A DNA stretch of 64,000 nt from IMG/VR virus record IMGVR_UViG_3300037258_000279, positions 1 to 64,000 of that record. One strand, given 5' to 3'. Position numbers and translations under genes: made by a program. The stretch's first letter is position 1. Every line of letters begins with the position of its first letter. Shown one piece after another: positions 14,457 to 43,175 of this stretch. The notes under the pieces were generated by a model. It saw nothing but the letters and a program-made list of their open reading frames with translations. It searched no databases and was not told the origin of the DNA. This stretch comes from a virus.

Positions 14457-14897
14457 ATGGACGATAAGCCGCTCACCACCGCCCGCGCTGTCGGCGAAGC
14501 TGTACTGGCACTCCCGAAGGAAAAGCCCGACGCACAAATGAGCCGGATCACGGCCTTGATCGCGGAAATAGAATCGCGCCCGGGCGGCTTTTCTTTTCGT
14601 TCTCAAGAAGCGCCGGCGCCAGAAGGTGTTAAAGCGATTCTCGACTGGTGCATCAAACACGAAATTCTGGTGACGGATGGGGCTGCACTGATCTCTGGCG
14701 CCGCCGGATCGTGCCTTCCTATCCTGGTACAAATGTGCGCCGCGCTCAAGGTGATGAGCGACCGCAAGGACCAGGCCGTCACCTTTCGCGATGTGATCGA
14801 GACGTTCATCGGCTTTCCGTCGCACAAAGATTTCCACGACCTGTGGGACCAGCGAATCGATGTCATCGCGCTCGCCGACCCGGAGGCATGGCGATGA
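14457..14897 (+). CDS. Hypothetical protein (146 aa)
   Basis: Start at 14457 (MDDKPLTTARAVGEAV) with AGGGGAG upstream; the open frame begins earlier at 14337 but that part is Pro/Arg-rich and lies over the terminator region. The product is mainly helical with two Cys-containing hydrophobic stretches (ALISGAAGSCLPILVQMCAA). Its stop overlaps the start of the VWA gene as ATGA, so it probably belongs to the MoxR/VWA module. No family recognised. Confidence 0.6.
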   Translation: MDDKPLTTARAVGEAVLALPKEKPDAQMSRITALIAEIESRPGGFSFRSQEAPAPEGVKAILDWCIKHEILVTDGAALISGAAGSCLPILVQMCAALKVMSDRKDQAVTFRDVIETFIGFPSHKDFHDLWDQRIDVIALADPEAWR

Positions 14898-38519: not shown

Positions 38520-38594
38520 TGGAGCCGGCGGAGGGAATCGAACCCGTCGTTGGGACGTTACGAATGTCCTGTCCTGCCACTGAACGACGCCGGC
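38520..38594 (-). tRNA. tRNA-Thr(CGT)
   Basis: 75 bases with encoded CCA, 7-bp acceptor and a TTCGATT T-loop. The anticodon loop TTCGTAA gives CGT (codon ACG). The pair 31-39 is an A-C mismatch. Last gene of the tRNA array in the direction of transcription. Confidence 0.9.
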
Positions 38595-38599
38595 GATGG

Positions 38600-38673
38600 T
38601 GGTGGGCCTGCTCGGAATTGAACCGAGATCAACGCCTTAAAAGGGCGCAGCTTGACCTTCCAGCTACAGACCC
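38600..38673 (-). tRNA. tRNA-Lys(TTT)
   Basis: Encoded CCA, acceptor with one G-U pair. Loop CTTTTAA, anticodon TTT (codons AAA/AAG). T-loop TTCAATT departs from TTCGANN by one base. D-arm is slightly short. Confidence 0.85.
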
Positions 38674-38677
38674 GAAT

Positions 38678-38754
38678 TGGTGCGTCGCCTCGGATTCGAA
38701 CCGAGACTTGCCGGGATTTGAAGCCGGTGCTTCTGCCAATTGAGCGAGCGACGC
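38678..38754 (-). tRNA. tRNA, class I with anticodon CAA (Leu) or shifted TCA
   Basis: 77 bases, well-paired acceptor (GCGTCGC/GCGACGC), T-arm and CCA. Centrally read, the loop TTCAAAT gives CAA (Leu, TTG), but with a 5-base variable loop, not the long arm of tRNA-Leu. One base shifted, CTTCAAA would be TCA, the selenocysteine/opal loop. The 31-39 pair is C-C. The body looks more like tRNA-Trp than tRNA-Leu. Identity uncertain. Confidence 0.75.
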
Positions 38755-38758
38755 GAAA

Positions 38759-38833
38759 TGGTGGTCCCGCAAGGAATCGAACCTTGATCCCGAGATTCGG
38801 ATTCTCGGATGCTATCCGTTGCACTACGGAACC
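38759..38833 (-). tRNA. tRNA-Arg(CCG)
   Basis: Acceptor GGTTCCG/CGGGACC, encoded CCA. Loop ATCCGAA inside a CCGAGA/TCTCGG stem gives anticodon CCG (codon CGG). Its 5' end abuts the 3' end of the neighbouring tRNA-like gene. Confidence 0.9.
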
Positions 38834-38910
38834 GGCACCGGTGACAGGAGTCGAACCTGCATCGTCCAGTTATGCACCGACCGCTTAGAAGGCGAGGCCA
38901 ATACACCGGC
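38834..38910 (-). tRNA. tRNA-like gene, possible Arg(TCT), atypical D-arm
   Basis: A 7-bp acceptor with terminal G-U pair and a good T-arm (GCAGG TTCGACT CCTGT), but CCA is not encoded (CCG). The only canonical loop is CTTCTAA (anticodon TCT), placed too close to the acceptor for a normal D-arm and followed by a 19-base variable stretch. Either degenerate or unusual in shape; identity uncertain. Confidence 0.45.
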
Positions 38911-38918
38911 AAAAAGTC

Positions 38919-38995
38919 TGGCGCACCCGGAGGGATTCGAACCCCCAACCTCTCGATCCGTAGTCGAGCGCTCGGTCCAGTCGAGCTGCGGGTGC
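38919..38995 (-). tRNA. tRNA-Arg(ACG)
   Basis: Acceptor GCACCCG/CGGGTGC, D-stem GCTC/GAGC, CCA encoded. Loop CTACGGA gives ACG, which is normally edited to ICG and reads CGT, CGC and CGA. Confidence 0.92.
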
Positions 38996-38999
38996 AATC

Positions 39000-39075
39000 T
39001 GGCGCCTCGTAGCGGATTCGAACCGCTGTCTCCGGAGTGAAGGTCCGGCCACCTAGCCGCTAGTAAGAACGAGGC
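39000..39075 (-). tRNA. tRNA-Glu(TTC), C33
   Basis: Acceptor GCCTCGT/ACGAGGC, CCA encoded. Stem CCGGA/TCCGG with loop CCTTCAC gives TTC. Position 33 is C instead of the usual T. Confidence 0.9.
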
Positions 39076-39079
39076 AATC

Positions 39080-39154
39080 TGGTAGGCGCGGGCGGGGTTG
39101 AACCGCCGACCTCCTGCGTGTCGAGCAAGCGATCTACCGCTGATCTACGCGCCC
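39080..39154 (-). tRNA. tRNA-Val(GAC), C33
   Basis: Acceptor GGGCGCG/CGCGCCT, CCA encoded, D-stem GATC/GATC. Stem CTTGC/GCAGG with loop TCGACAC gives GAC (codons GTC/GTT). Position 33 is C. Confidence 0.85.
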
Positions 39155-39158
39155 AAGC

Positions 39159-39233
39159 TGGTACCCCGCGACGGGATCGAACCGCCGACATCCTCGGTGT
39201 AAACGAAGCGCTCTACCTCTGAGCTAGCGGGGC
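39159..39233 (-). tRNA. tRNA-Val(TAC)
   Basis: Acceptor GCCCCGC/GCGGGGT, CCA encoded, D-stem GCTC/GAGC. Loop TTTACAC gives TAC (codons GTA/GTG). Confidence 0.9.
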
Positions 39234-39238
39234 ATGTT

Positions 39239-39315
39239 TGGTCGGAGTGAGTGGATTCGAACCACCGGCCCCAGCGTCCCGAACGCTGTGCTCTGCCATG
39301 CTGAGCTACACTCCG
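39239..39315 (-). tRNA. tRNA-Pro(CGG)
   Basis: Acceptor CGGAGTG/CACTCCG with the C1-G72 pair usual for Pro, CCA encoded. Stem CAGCG/CGCTG with loop TTCGGGA gives CGG (codon CCG). Confidence 0.92.
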
Positions 39316-39320
39316 TCATC

Positions 39321-39396
39321 TGGCGCTCTTGGTGAGGCTCGAACTCACAACCCCCGAACTAGGATTTCGGTGCTCGTCCGATCGAGCTGCAAGAGC
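39321..39396 (-). tRNA. tRNA-Arg(CCT)
   Basis: Acceptor GCTCTTG/CAAGAGC, CCA encoded, D-stem GCTC/GAGC. Stem CCGAA/TTCGG with loop ATCCTAG gives CCT (codon AGG). Confidence 0.92.
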
Positions 39397-39400
39397 AAAT

Positions 39401-39478
39401 TGGTGCGGGCGACAGGATTCGAACCTGCGACTTCCCGGTCCCAAACCGGGCGCTCTGGCCTGACTGAGCTACACCCAC
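39401..39478 (-). tRNA. tRNA-Pro(TGG)
   Basis: Acceptor GTGGGTG/CGCCCGC with two G-U pairs and G1-C72, CCA encoded. Stem CCCGG/CCGGG with loop TTTGGGA gives TGG (codons CCA/CCG). Confidence 0.9.
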
Positions 39479-39487
39479 GAACGAAAC

Positions 39488-39561
39488 TGGCGCTTCCAGT
39501 CGGGATCGAACCGGCGTTGACGGCGTGACAAGCCGCTCTCCTACCATTGGAGGATGGAAGC
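39488..39561 (-). tRNA. tRNA-Asp(GTC)
   Basis: Acceptor GCTTCCA/TGGAAGC, discriminator G, CCA encoded. Stem GCGGC/GCCGT with loop TTGTCAC gives GTC. Confidence 0.92.
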
Positions 39562-39570
39562 AAACGAATT

Positions 39571-39645
39571 TGGTGGGCTGCCAGGGACTCGAACCCTGAA
39601 CCTACGGATTAAGAGTCCGCTGCGCTACCATTGCGCCAGCAACCC
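39571..39645 (-). tRNA. tRNA-Lys(CTT)
   Basis: Acceptor GGGTTGC/GCAGCCC, D-stem GCGC/GCGC, CCA encoded. Stem GCGGA/TCCGT with loop CTCTTAA gives CTT (codon AAG). Confidence 0.92.
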
Positions 39646-39648
39646 GAT

Positions 39649-39724
39649 TGGTGGGCCAGTACGGGGTCGAACCGTCATCGGACGCTTATCAAGCGTCTGC
39701 TCGCAGCCGTTGAGCTACAGGCCC
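39649..39724 (-). tRNA. tRNA-Ile(GAT)
   Basis: Acceptor GGGCCTG/CTGGCCC with one T-T mismatch at 6-67, D-stem GCTC/GAGC, CCA encoded. Stem GACGC/GCGTC with loop TTGATAA gives GAT. Confidence 0.9.
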
Positions 39725-39725
39725 G

Positions 39726-39810
39726 TGGTGGGTCGGCGTGGTGTCGATCCACTCCCCCGCAGGGACGGGTTTTACAGACCCGCTGCCGGATCCGCCGGCT
39801 TTGCCTTCCC
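39726..39810 (-). tRNA. tRNA-Tyr(GTA), class II, imperfect acceptor
   Basis: 85 bases with a long variable arm, as expected for bacterial Tyr. Stem CGGGT/ACCCG with loop CTGTAAA gives GTA. The acceptor GGGAAGG/CCGACCC has two mismatches and the T-loop is ATCGACA instead of TTCGANN, so it may be partly degenerate. Confidence 0.75.
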
Positions 39811-39816
39811 GTGATC

Positions 39817-39891
39817 TGGTGCCCGGTGACGGATTTGAACCGCCGGCCTCTCCCTTACCGAGGGATTGCACTGCCGCTGTGCTAACCGGGC
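39817..39891 (-). tRNA. tRNA-Thr(GGT), C33
   Basis: Acceptor GCCCGGT/ACCGGGC, CCA encoded. Loop TCGGTAA closed by three G-C pairs gives GGT (codons ACC/ACT). Position 33 is C. Confidence 0.88.
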
Positions 39892-39896
39892 ATACC

Positions 39897-39988
39897 TGGC
39901 GGTGCCGGAGGGATTCGAACCCTCGGGCCGGCTTTCACCGGCCAACGGTTTAGCAAACCGCCGCCTTCGGCCACTCGGCCACAGCACC
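39897..39988 (-). tRNA. tRNA-Ser(GCT)
   Basis: Class II with a long variable arm, acceptor GGTGCTG/CGGCACC, discriminator G, CCA encoded. Loop TTGCTAA gives GCT (codons AGC/AGT). Confidence 0.92.
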
Positions 39989-39992
39989 ATGT

Positions 39993-40082
39993 TGGAGGAA
40001 CGTGATGGCATCGAACCATCAGCCGCTCGCGCGGCGCCCCGGGTTTCAGAGCCGGTGAAGGAGCCAACCTTCGGCACGTTCC
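39993..40082 (-). tRNA. tRNA-Ser(TGA), C33
   Basis: Class II with long variable arm, acceptor GGAACGT/ACGTTCC, CCA encoded, discriminator T. Loop TCTGAAA gives TGA (codon TCA). Position 33 is C and pair 31-39 is C-C. Confidence 0.85.
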
Positions 40083-40085
40083 AAT

Positions 40086-40173
40086 TGGCGGTTGGGGTGA
40101 GATTCGAACTCACGGTGCCCGTAGGCACTCCGGGTTTCGGGTCCGGCGCAATCGGCCACTCTGCCACCCAACC
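40086..40173 (-). tRNA. tRNA-Ser(CGA), C33
   Basis: Class II with long variable arm, acceptor GGTTGGG/CCCAACC, discriminator G, CCA encoded. Loop CCCGAAA gives CGA (codon TCG). Position 33 is C; pair 31-39 is A-C. Confidence 0.88.
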
Positions 40174-40182
40174 AAACGAATC

Positions 40183-40272
40183 TGGCGGACGGTGAAGGAT
40201 TCGAACCTTCGGTGCCCAGAACGGGCACGCCGCGATTCCAACGCGGTGCAATCGCCACTCTGCCAACCGTCC
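40183..40272 (-). tRNA. tRNA-Ser(GGA)
   Basis: Class II, acceptor GGACGGT/ACCGTCC, discriminator G, CCA encoded. Stem CCGCG/CGCGG with loop TTGGAAT gives GGA (codons TCC/TCT). Fourth Ser tRNA in a row. Confidence 0.92.
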
Positions 40273-40276
40273 GAAC

Positions 40277-40360
40277 TGGTGTCCCCGGGGAGAGTCGAAC
40301 TCCCACGCCGCGAGGCACAGGCACCTCAAGCCTGCGCGTCTACCATTCCGCCACGAGGAC
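40277..40360 (-). tRNA. tRNA-Leu(GAG)
   Basis: Class II with long variable arm, acceptor GTCCTCG/CGGGGAC, discriminator A, CCA encoded. Stem CAGGC/GCCTG with loop TTGAGGT gives GAG (codons CTC/CTT). Confidence 0.92.
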
Positions 40361-40365
40361 AATTT

Positions 40366-40450
40366 TGGTGCGAGCCGGGAGAGTCGAACTCCCATGTCTT
40401 GCGACACTCGGTCCTGAGCCGAGCGCGTCTGCCTATTCCGCCAGGCTCGC
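40366..40450 (-). tRNA. tRNA-Leu(CAG)
   Basis: Class II, acceptor GCGAGCC/GGCTCGC, discriminator A, CCA encoded. Stem CTCGG/CCGAG with loop CTCAGGA gives CAG (codon CTG). Confidence 0.92.
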
Positions 40451-40456
40451 GTGATC

Positions 40457-40532
40457 TGGTGCGGGCATCGGGAGTCGAACCCAATGGAAGCCAGGGTTTA
40501 GGCCCGGCCGCGTCACCGTGCGCCATGCCCGC
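40457..40532 (-). tRNA. tRNA, class I with anticodon TAA (Leu) or shifted CTA; C33
   Basis: 76 bases, acceptor GCGGGCA/TGCCCGC, discriminator A, CCA encoded. Stem CCGGG/CCTGG with loop CCTAAAC gives TAA (Leu, TTA), but with only a short variable loop, unlike tRNA-Leu. One base shifted it would read CTA, an amber suppressor. Position 33 is C. Identity uncertain. Confidence 0.75.
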
Positions 40533-40536
40533 ATAT

Positions 40537-40612
40537 TGGCGTCCCGCGGGGGAATTGAACCCGCCGTTTCCCGAGTGAGAGTCGGGGTTCCTGACCGCTA
40601 GAAGAGCGGGAC
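40537..40612 (-). tRNA. tRNA-Glu(CTC)
   Basis: Acceptor GTCCCGC/GCGGGAC, discriminator G, CCA encoded. Stem CCCGA/TCGGG with loop CTCTCAC gives CTC (codon GAG). Confidence 0.9.
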
Positions 40613-40617
40613 ATGGT

Positions 40618-40693
40618 TGGCTGCGGCGGAACGGATTCGAACCTTCGACCTGCGCGCTCAAAACGCGCTGCTCTACCGCTGAGCTACGCCGCA
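40618..40693 (-). tRNA. tRNA-Gln(TTG)
   Basis: Acceptor TGCGGCG/CGCCGCA with T1-A72, CCA encoded. Stem GCGCG/CGCGC with loop TTTTGAG gives TTG (codons CAA/CAG). One A-G mismatch in the T-stem. Confidence 0.9.
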
Positions 40694-40699
40694 ACAAAT

Positions 40700-40773
40700 T
40701 GGCAGGGCGGCTCGGATTCGAACCGAGGCGAACGGAGTCAGAGTCCGTTATGCTGCCGTTACATCACCGCCCA
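40700..40773 (-). tRNA. tRNA-Gln(CTG)
   Basis: T1 as in other Gln tRNAs but facing T72 (mismatch), otherwise six G-C pairs in the acceptor; CCA encoded. Stem ACGGA/TCCGT with loop CTCTGAC gives CTG (codon CAG). Confidence 0.88.
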
Positions 40774-40780
40774 TCAAAAC

Positions 40781-40855
40781 TGGTGCCGGTAGAGAGGATT
40801 GAACTCCCGACCTTCGCATTACAAATGCACTGCTCTGCCGCTGAGCTATACCGGC
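40781..40855 (-). tRNA. tRNA-Thr(TGT)
   Basis: Acceptor GCCGGTA/TACCGGC, D-stem GCTC/GAGC, CCA encoded. Loop TTTGTAA gives TGT (codons ACA/ACG). It abuts tRNA-His with no spacer. Confidence 0.9.
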
Positions 40856-40931
40856 TGGGGTGAGTAGTGGGGATCGAACCCACGAATGATCGGTTCACAG
40901 CCGACCGCGTTAGCCACTTCGCCATACCCAC
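40856..40931 (-). tRNA. tRNA-His(GTG)
   Basis: Acceptor GTGGGTA/TACTCAC, discriminator C and a G just before position 1, both typical of His, with CCA encoded. Stem GTCGG/CCGAT with loop CTGTGAA gives GTG. Confidence 0.92.
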
Positions 40932-41020
40932 CACGAAAATGCTACCCGGTGGTCTTGCCTTGAAACGACGCCCCACGCGTGAGACGGACAGGTATCGAAA
41001 CCTGCATCACCGGGTTCTTT
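40932..41020 (-). other. tRNA 3'-half remnant between tRNA-Cys and tRNA-His
   Basis: About 89 bases contain a T-arm-like GCAGGTTTCGATACCTGT sequence and a possible acceptor strand after it, but no D- or anticodon arm before the tRNA-Cys CCA end. Probably the remains of a tRNA gene that lost its 5' half. Confidence 0.4.
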
Positions 41021-41094
41021 TGGAGGTGCGCCGCGGAGTCGAACCGCGATTGCGGGATTTGCAGTCCCGAGCCTAGCCGTTCGGCCAGCGCACC
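41021..41094 (-). tRNA. tRNA-Cys(GCA)
   Basis: Acceptor GGTGCGC/GCGCACC, discriminator T, CCA encoded. Stem CGGGA/TCCCG with loop CTGCAAA gives GCA. Confidence 0.92.
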
Positions 41095-41098
41095 AATC

Positions 41099-41174
41099 TG
41101 GCACCGGGGGAGGGATTCGAACTCTCGACACGCGGTTTTGGAGACCGCTGCTCTAGCCACTGAGCTACCCCGGT
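41099..41174 (-). tRNA. tRNA-Trp(CCA)
   Basis: Acceptor ACCGGGG/CCCCGGT, discriminator G, CCA encoded. Stem GCGGT/ACCGC with loop CTCCAAA gives CCA (codon TGG). The HNH gene stop lies only a few bases upstream of its 5' end. Confidence 0.92.
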
Positions 41175-41177
41175 AGA

Positions 41178-41771
41178 TCAATAAACTCCGTTCCTGCTGT
41201 CGGTGCGAAGCCATTTTCTGACGGCCGCTTCTGATACGCCATATCTCGCGGCGACTTTGACTCGAGATGCCCGCACCACCATTTCCCGAAGCCGCTTTCC
41301 TTCGGGTCTGTCCGGGACCTTAGCTTTAGCCTGAGACCGACATCGATTGCTGCAAAACTTTAAGCCGGCTCGCAAAGGGGCGCCGCACTTTTCGCATGCT
41401 GCCCCATCGTCACGCGGGAGGGTCGCAATGTTCCTTCTCGTGACGCGACCATTACGCATAGATAGCGGGATTGTTGCCTCGTCAAAGCGCCGAATATTGT
41501 CTGGGATTCTGGTGCTCCCCTCATGCACCTCGTCGTGGCAGTTGTGACATAGCATCACACATTTTCTTGCCTCGTCCGCGACCCGCTTCCATGATCGCGG
41601 GACACCGTTGGACGCCATGCTAAATTTTTTCTGCGCCGGCTCGACGTGATGGAACGTCAAGGCGCGCATCGACTTCGCGTAACCGCAAATTCCACAACGG
41701 CCGCCGAACGCGACGACGAGCTTTTCTTTCATTCGTTGCCGCCAACGAACGACCGCAGCGCCACCGCTCAT
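41178..41771 (-). CDS. HNH homing-type endonuclease inside the tRNA array
   Basis: 197 residues; start at 41771 (MSGGAAVVRWRQ) because a longer frame would run through tRNA-Asn. HNH core: CGICGYAKSMRALTFHHVEP, then CVMLCHNCHDEVHEG. A CxxC/CxxxC zinc motif follows (CEKCG, CSNRC) and a C-terminal helix-turn-helix (VAARYGVSEAAVRKWL). Such free-standing nucleases are mobile and often sit within tRNA arrays. It starts 2 bases from the CCA end of tRNA-Asn and ends 3 bases before tRNA-Trp. Confidence 0.8.
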   Translation of the reverse strand: MSGGAAVVRWRQRMKEKLVVAFGGRCGICGYAKSMRALTFHHVEPAQKKFSMASNGVPRSWKRVADEARKCVMLCHNCHDEVHEGSTRIPDNIRRFDEATIPLSMRNGRVTRRNIATLPRDDGAACEKCGAPLRAGLKFCSNRCRSQAKAKVPDRPEGKRLREMVVRASRVKVAARYGVSEAAVRKWLRTDSRNGVY

Positions 41772-41773
41772 TT

Positions 41774-41848
41774 TGGCTCCCCGAGCTGGACTCGAACCAG
41801 CGACCTGCCGCTTAACAGGCGGTTGTTCTACCACTGAACTACCGGGGA
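41774..41848 (-). tRNA. tRNA-Asn(GTT)
   Basis: Acceptor TCCCCGG/TCGGGGA, D-stem GTTC/GAAC, CCA encoded. Loop CTGTTAA gives GTT. First tRNA on the far side of the HNH gene. Confidence 0.92.
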
Positions 41849-41957
41849 AAAAACTGAAAGAGAGTTGCCGAAGCTCCCACTGCCCGGGCTTTTCCGCGCG
41901 GGTTCGCCACACGATTTCTCGCTGGCGTGGCCCCGACGGACGGCTGCCCGTGTCGGA

Positions 41958-42032
41958 TGGAGCGGGCGACGAGAATCGAACTCGCGACATTCTGCTTGGA
42001 AGGCAGAAGCTCTACCCCTGAGCTACACCCGC
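41958..42032 (-). tRNA. tRNA-Gly(TCC)
   Basis: Acceptor GCGGGTG/CGCCCGC, discriminator T, CCA encoded, D-stem GCTC/GAGC. Loop CTTCCAA gives TCC (codons GGA/GGG). Confidence 0.92.
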
Positions 42033-42106
42033 AATCTTGTGCTCGCCCCGGTCGGCGCTGTCGTGAACAGCATGGAGTGACTTGGCCACAACCGACCGGG
42101 ACGAAT

Positions 42107-42182
42107 TGGTGCCGAAGAGTGGAATCGAACCACTGACACCCACGCCTTCAACGTAGTGCTCTACCTGCTGAGCTACTTCGGC
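42107..42182 (-). tRNA. tRNA-Phe(GAA)
   Basis: Acceptor GCCGAAG/CTTCGGC, discriminator A, CCA encoded. Stem CTACG/CGTGG with loop TTGAAGG gives GAA. The 236 bases beyond it, up to tRNA-fMet, hold no clear gene. Confidence 0.92.
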
Positions 42183-42418
42183 AAATTTCTCGGGGCTGGA
42201 TTTGTCATTCCTCCGTTCCTTGCTAGCAGGGGGAGTCGCAGATACCAGCATACAGGATTGCGGCACAGCCACCTTTAGGCTGGCGCTACCAGCCGCTGCG
42301 TCCTTGGTGTTTGGACGACCCGAGAATCTTCCGGCGACCGGACCAAGTTCTCATGCAGGAGATCCCGCCAAGGTCCGAACATTTGCATCATTGACGCCTT
42401 AGGGGCGTACCGCCGAGT

Positions 42419-42495
42419 TGGTTGCGCTGGCCGGCAATCGAAGCCGGCGACCTTCGGGTTATGGACCCGACGAGCTACCTCTGCTCCACAGCGCG
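42419..42495 (-). tRNA. Initiator tRNA-fMet(CAT), C33
   Basis: Shows bacterial initiator features: C1 opposite A72, three G-C pairs (GGG/CCC) closing the anticodon stem, and a body close to E. coli tRNA-fMet (TGGAGCAG, GTAGCTCGTCGGG). CCA encoded. The loop is TCCATAA, so position 33 is C instead of T, with anticodon CAT. Phage-encoded initiator tRNAs are unusual. Confidence 0.92.
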
Positions 42496-42500
42496 TCAAA

Positions 42501-42576
42501 TGGTGGCAGGGGTGGGAGTCGAACCCGACGACCTGAGCGTTATGAGCGCACCGATCTACCGCTGATCTACCCTGCT
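42501..42576 (-). tRNA. tRNA-Met(CAT), elongator or Ile2 type
   Basis: Loop CTCATAA gives CAT. The acceptor AGCAGGG/CCCTGCC has a 1-72 A-C mismatch; CCA encoded. Whether it is elongator Met or a lysidine-modified Ile(CAT) cannot be told from the anticodon alone. Confidence 0.85.
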
Positions 42577-42583
42577 ATCGAAT

Positions 42584-42658
42584 TGGAGCGGGCAATGGGA
42601 GTCGAACCCACGACCTCAACCTTGGCAAGGTTGCGCTCTGCCCCTGAGCTATGCCCGC
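42584..42658 (-). tRNA. tRNA-Gly(GCC)
   Basis: Acceptor GCGGGCA/TGCCCGC, discriminator T, CCA encoded. Stem CAACC/GGTTG with loop TTGCCAA gives GCC (codons GGC/GGT). Confidence 0.92.
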
Positions 42659-42662
42659 AAAT

Positions 42663-42738
42663 TGGTGGAGGTAGAGGGACTCGAACCCACGACATCCTGC
42701 TTGCAAAACAGGCGCTCTCCCAACTGAGCTATACCCCC
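42663..42738 (-). tRNA. tRNA-Ala(TGC)
   Basis: Acceptor GGGGGTA/TACCTCC carries the G3-U70 pair that identifies Ala, discriminator A, CCA encoded. Stem CCTGT/GCAGG with loop TTTGCAA gives TGC. First gene of the array in the direction of transcription. Confidence 0.92.
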
Positions 42739-43175
42739 GGAAAAAATCTGGCGCATCTGGCTTTCAAGGGACCACCGGATCGCCCGGCCGTCTTCCTAGT
42801 GGTGTGGCCCGGCGCACGCGGCGCCAGTTGTCCCGATGCAGAGCCGGGGAAGGTCGAACCAGACCTTGCTTGCCGGTGGTCTACAACCCCTACGCCTTCG
42901 ACAAACCAATAACGAAAAAACCTCCCGCGGTTTCCCGGGGAGGCTCTTCGATCTTTCGATCTGATCCGAGTATTTATTTCTCGGACGAAGCCTCCCTGCG
43001 GGCGGGTTGCCGCTGCGCGCTATTACCCATCGGGTGATGGATAAAGGACGTGCGCGACCACCCGAATGTTTCGGATAGTTTCGCTCGCAGATTTGAGGCC
43101 GTTAAGAGCATGGCGGGAAACCTAGTGTCTACCGACCGACTTGTAAAGGGGGTTTCTCGCGATATTTTTTACGAA
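42739..43175. other. Intergenic region between lysis genes and tRNA array
   Basis: About 440 bases with no supported gene. It contains the terminator at 42914-42943 and a second hairpin (TCCGAG/CTCGGA) at 42966-42986 on the leftward strand. A promoter for the tRNA array would be expected downstream of the terminator, but none is clear by eye. Confidence 0.55.
42914..42943 (-). terminator. Terminator ending the structural/lysis operon
   Basis: Leftward CCTCCC pairs with GGGAGG around CGGGAAACCGC, with extra pairs inside, followed by TTTTTTCG. It lies after the endolysin gene and before the tRNA array, so the tRNAs are probably transcribed separately. Confidence 0.75.

Follow-up and report, generated by a model that had tools for sequence, protein, structure and literature searches.

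Cytosine at position 33 of seven tRNA genes in a phage tRNA array, a putative initiator among them

The DNA analyzed here (the window) covers the initial 64 kb of a virus record of 93,664 bases. Genes for a RecT-like protein, the large subunit of a ribonucleotide reductase, a DNA methyltransferase and a primase lie in the window and a gene for a large terminase lies in the record beyond it; this gene content identifies the virus as a tailed phage. Searches of viral contigs with the RecT-like and giant proteins returned no close relative, and the relative of the ribonucleotide reductase (46% identity) is without tRNAs. The window holds an array of 38 tRNA genes (Table 1), for which ARAGORN gives 35 calls, every one on the minus strand; the remaining three, Arg(TCT), Tyr(GTA) and Ser(TGA), were added from Rfam and from reading by eye. 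The array itself spans 38520-42738, and the tRNAs that are the subject of this work start at 39000. The T-loop of tRNA-Tyr(GTA) reads ATCGACA, with A54 replacing T54. Two stretches in gaps of the array (40940-41015 and 42750-42870) look tRNA-like by eye and have no Rfam match at E ≤ 1.

Table 1. The tRNA array and its features, numbered from the first base of the window
Feature	Coordinates	Strand	Basis and remarks
tRNA array, 38 tRNA genes	38520-42738	minus	ARAGORN (35); Rfam RF00005; the other three by Rfam and by hand
tRNA-Arg(TCT)	38836-38910	minus	Rfam and reading by eye
tRNA-Glu(TTC)	39000-39075	minus	Loop CCTTCAC, C33; ARAGORN; Rfam 44 bits
tRNA-Val(GAC)	39080-39154	minus	Loop TCGACAC, C33; ARAGORN; Rfam 58.5 bits
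tRNA-Tyr(GTA)	about 39727-39813	minus	Rfam and reading by eye; not called by ARAGORN
tRNA-Thr(GGT)	39817-39891	minus	Loop TCGGTAA, C33; ARAGORN; Rfam 57.8 bits
tRNA-Ser(TGA)	39993-40082	minus	Loop TCTGAAA, C33; manual reading and fold; tRNA-Sec model 37.9 bits
tRNA-Ser(CGA)	40086-40173	minus	Loop CCCGAAA, C33, 31-39 mismatch; ARAGORN; Rfam 48.4 bits
Short-variable-arm tRNA, anticodon TAA	40457-40532	minus	Loop CCTAAAC, C33; ARAGORN; Rfam tRNA-Sec model 33 bits
HNH endonuclease gene	41178-41990	minus	Within the tRNA array
tRNA-Met, initiator features	42419-42495	minus	Loop TCCATAA, C33; Rfam 39.9 bits

The preliminary description of this DNA named seven tRNAs with C in place of T at position 33. 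Our loop table gives the same seven, with T33 in the other 31 of the 38, and in the covariance-model scoring that the description proposed five of the seven pass the gathering score of RF00005. Rfam lists the other two, Ser(TGA) and the TAA tRNA, through its tRNA-Sec model only, under the gathering score of that model. The most irregular of the seven is Ser(TGA), which escapes ARAGORN and has a C.C mismatch at 31-39. The Met tRNA, with a CAT anticodon, is taken as an initiator because of its C1.A72 mismatch, its GGG/CCC anticodon stem and its encoded CCA; its T stem has 6 bp and a C53-G61 pair where bacterial initiators have the G53-C61 closing pair. Leu anticodons are carried on tRNAs with a short class I variable arm both in the TAA tRNA and at 38678-38754 (CAA), and similar short-arm CAA and TAA tRNAs are seen in two other loci, L011 and L079, and in the Streptomyces phage LuckySocke. 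A misread anticodon frame in the TAA and CAA tRNAs was considered and rejected, as the alternatives CTA and TCA pair worse by hand.

The condition of these genes provides insight on whether they are in decay. Among the 35 ARAGORN calls in the window there are no departures (0/35) at T54, T55, C56, R57 and A58, compared with 6/35 at position 33, and T54/T55 changes in the window number 0/68 (counts at T8 and A14 were left out; ARAGORN 5' ends vary). Stem mispairing per viral tRNA is 0.88 with C33 and 1.07 with T33. All but one of the six C33 elongators read codons in moderate or heavy use, with shares of the codon family in ten long genes of this phage of 42% for GTC, 55% for TCG, 30% for ACC, 50% for GAA and 16% for TCA; the exception reads TTA, at 2% of Leu codons. 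General decay is unlikely given intact T-loops, preserved stems and common codons read, and the loss of invariants and of stem pairing beyond position 33 that would mark pseudogenes was not found, although Ser(TGA) and the initiator are irregular in part. A milder version, in which the phage can do without these tRNAs and relaxed selection, with mutation toward GC, has begun a partial decay of which C33 is an early lesion, could draw on the further irregularities of Ser(TGA), the initiator T stem and the TAA tRNA, and on the higher incidence of C33 in GC-rich arrays than in others (11/249 vs 1/131 in arrays not chosen for C33, a marginal p = 0.065; 19/125 vs 8/150 in arrays chosen for it, p = 0.008). 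Yet this account must also face the rarity of purines at position 33 and a strong anticodon bias (see below), and we regard it as improbable. Because Ser(TGA) and the initiator depart further and the architecture of the TAA tRNA is unexpected, some of the seven are possibly weak or inactive.

Comparison with other arrays and with cells sets the frequency of C33 in perspective. Position 33 departs in 7/38 tRNAs here vs 9/276 in viral arrays that were not chosen for C33 and were sampled by sequence pattern (Fisher p = 0.001), and C33 is found in 6/37 elongators here vs about 1/252 cellular elongators (p = 2e-5); these p-values and counts take tRNAs as independent and ignore relatedness. In unchosen phage arrays about 3% of tRNAs have C33, in a few arrays 14-21% do, and four viral arrays picked for having C33 show 5-7 position-33 departures each. 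A sequence pattern for C33 initiators matched many genuine tRNAs in viral contigs, while a pattern neutral between C and T found C33 in 7/118 viral initiators. C33 is thus not peculiar to this phage. One further viral array has a Glu(TTC) tRNA whose C33 anticodon arm is the same as here, together with a C33 Arg(TCT). In the cellular control, a small set of 117 loci fetched through the C33-initiator pattern, T33 is present in 251/254 non-initiator tRNAs, and of the three that lack it two are Met(CAT). The premise of the preliminary description that U33 is almost invariant holds for cellular elongators; it does not extend to phages or to some initiators. Among 863 viral elongators the count at position 33 is 806 T, 52 C, 3 G and 2 A; the pyrimidine is thus conserved at this site.

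The tRNAs that carry C33 are not chosen at random; the choice follows the anticodon. By class, the same 863 viral elongators have C33 in 2/204 of those with C35, 0/83 of His, Asp and Tyr, 6/38 of Asn and 44/538 of the others. Shuffling of labels within loci gives p of approximately 0.0005-0.001 for both the C35 deficit and the clustering by anticodon. Position 35 participates in the anticodon turn, and this is a possible reason for the C35 deficit. The queuosine enzyme recognizes a UGU motif at positions 33-35 (PMC8136771, PMC10103133), a need that would account for the absence of C33 from His, Asp and Tyr, but not for its presence in Asn.

Named, cultured phages also have C33. Three C33 tRNAs, Pro(GGG), Ile(GAT) and Val(GAC), are found in Ruegeria phage RpAliso and one, Ile(GAT), in the stretch read of Xanthomonas phage XacN1. 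As in the present phage, a large array has C33 in some of its tRNAs; unlike here, the isoacceptors are mostly other than our seven. The arrays examined of Tunturi_5 and LuckySocke have no C33, and one short exact query for C33 initiators matched no named phage. A phage tRNA-Ile(GAT) that combines C33 with the T-loop ATCGTGA (A54, T58) is common to two viral loci, L361 and L419 (at 14764-14839 in the latter). The extreme case is Val(GAC), with C33 in 6/10 viral sequences. Bixzunavirus mycobacteriophages have Val(GAC) with C33, and 183 phage records, mostly of Mycobacterium smegmatis phages, have a C33 Val(GAC) of at least 99% identity to the Tonenili gene, with 34 of 40 among the matches listed at 100%, all from M. 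smegmatis phages. The anticodon-arm type of Val(GAC) in the window recurs in about 20 other viral contigs in which the remaining arms differ widely, and the loop TCGACAC is retained across strongly diverged viral Val(GAC) tRNAs. Phage-to-phage descent or transfer may be a partial cause of this common arm. The cellular loop TTGACAT was seen in none of nine phage Val(GAC) tRNAs, in a sample that preceded the Val scan. In a control that covered one phylum, that of a Spartobacteria record, TTGACAT is the Val(GAC) loop in 10 of 11 genomic matches; the eleventh reads TCGACAC and comes from a contig of 14 kb that carries two further tRNAs.

The persistence of TCGACAC in diverged tRNAs, with TTGACAT missing from the nine, is what one might expect if C33 were selected as a shield against host anticodon nucleases or a host loop modification, letting phage tRNAs survive the cutting of host tRNAs. 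Changes in the anticodon loops of phage tRNAs at nuclease sites are documented in the C1 mycobacteriophages (van den Berg et al. 2023, PMC10264068), which resemble the present phage in having large arrays with anticodon loops unlike cellular ones; that study has a nuclease context and its main text is silent on position 33 and U33, whereas the window has seven C33 tRNAs, an initiator included. The targets of AriB, Thr(UGU), Asn(GUU) and Lys(UUU) (PMC12409363), and Glu, the target of RloC (PMC2610378), are among the frequent C33 identities. But C33 is missing in our tally from Trp, Cys, Tyr, His, Asp and Arg, which are nuclease targets too, resistance to AriB is located at positions 39-41 and not at 33 (PMC12409363), and no nuclease gene is tied to this phage. 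Shielding may add to selection on C33, but as the explanation we hold it to be tentative and rather unlikely. The broader proposal sees in C33 a recurrent adaptation, selected according to the anticodon, by which the tRNA still decodes but its loop escapes nucleases or modification enzymes that read U33; it is similarly doubtful.

Initiators with C33 occur in cells as well: in Leuconostocaceae, some Planctomycetota, Erysipelotrichaceae, Patescibacteria and DPANN archaea, and complete chromosomes carry two of them. Of 14 cellular genomes with a C33 initiator, Weissella, Phycisphaerales and Pacearchaeota among them, 13 had no T33 initiator that fits the same pattern, and the C33 initiator is apparently the sole initiator in most cellular genomes tested. 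Eukaryotic initiators likewise carry C33 instead of U33 (PMC9023262). The phage Met tRNA differs from these in being of bacterial type (C1.A72), and phage C33 is found also in elongators.

Another account has C33 converted to U33 in mature tRNA through a deaminase from either the host or the phage. Genomic C at an expected tRNA U has precedents in C-to-U editing at position 8 of Methanopyrus tRNA (PMC3695527) and at C32 of tRNA-Tyr by TrcP of V. cholerae (PMC9553926). In contrast to those systems, in which editing is shown, family searches of the present record found no editing enzyme. The preliminary description had proposed looking for a deaminase gene in the full genome; PF00383, PF14437, THUMP and PseudoU_synth_2 have zero matches in the 93.7-kb record, which is possibly incomplete, and such searches would miss a TrcP-like deaminase that sequence families overlook. 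Editing is therefore unsupported. A host enzyme could supply it; the recurrence of C33 among phages of unrelated hosts goes against this, and we consider editing highly improbable.

The best explanation is that the seven are real phage tRNA genes whose C33 RNAs are used in translation unedited, with C33 tolerated in permissive contexts (probability about 0.6). Among the three accounts of C33 first put forward, tolerance fits best; editing loses by the lack of a family match in the 93.7-kb record, and decay by the T-loops, the stems and the codons. We infer that the C33 tRNAs are transcribed, charged and used for decoding, with no editing of C33. GC-ward mutation may supply the T-to-C change, and a pyrimidine at position 33 would leave the anticodon turn sufficiently intact for decoding where the anticodon context is permissive, so that such changes would persist in phage arrays, above all in GC-rich ones. 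In the initiator, C33 would be adequate for use in the P site. This tolerance may not be free. Position-33 mutants in yeast are reported to be poorer at decoding, and U33C in the yeast tRNA-Gln SUP70 alters the growth form, an effect tied by its authors to poorer decoding (PMC3664417); a cost of C33 is therefore possible. On balance, C33 seems to be tolerated in phage tRNAs that work, and may be useful to them; it does not look like decay.

Searches of open-access text gave no account of C33 in tRNAs of phages. U33 is treated as near-universal, and its recurrent, anticodon-dependent loss in phages is a natural test of its role, one made practical by the cultured M. smegmatis phages that have C33. 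If the adaptation reading were true, it would show most clearly in the Val(GAC) loop TCGACAC, which diverged phages have in common. The C33 tRNAs also bear on the reasons for which phages carry tRNAs.
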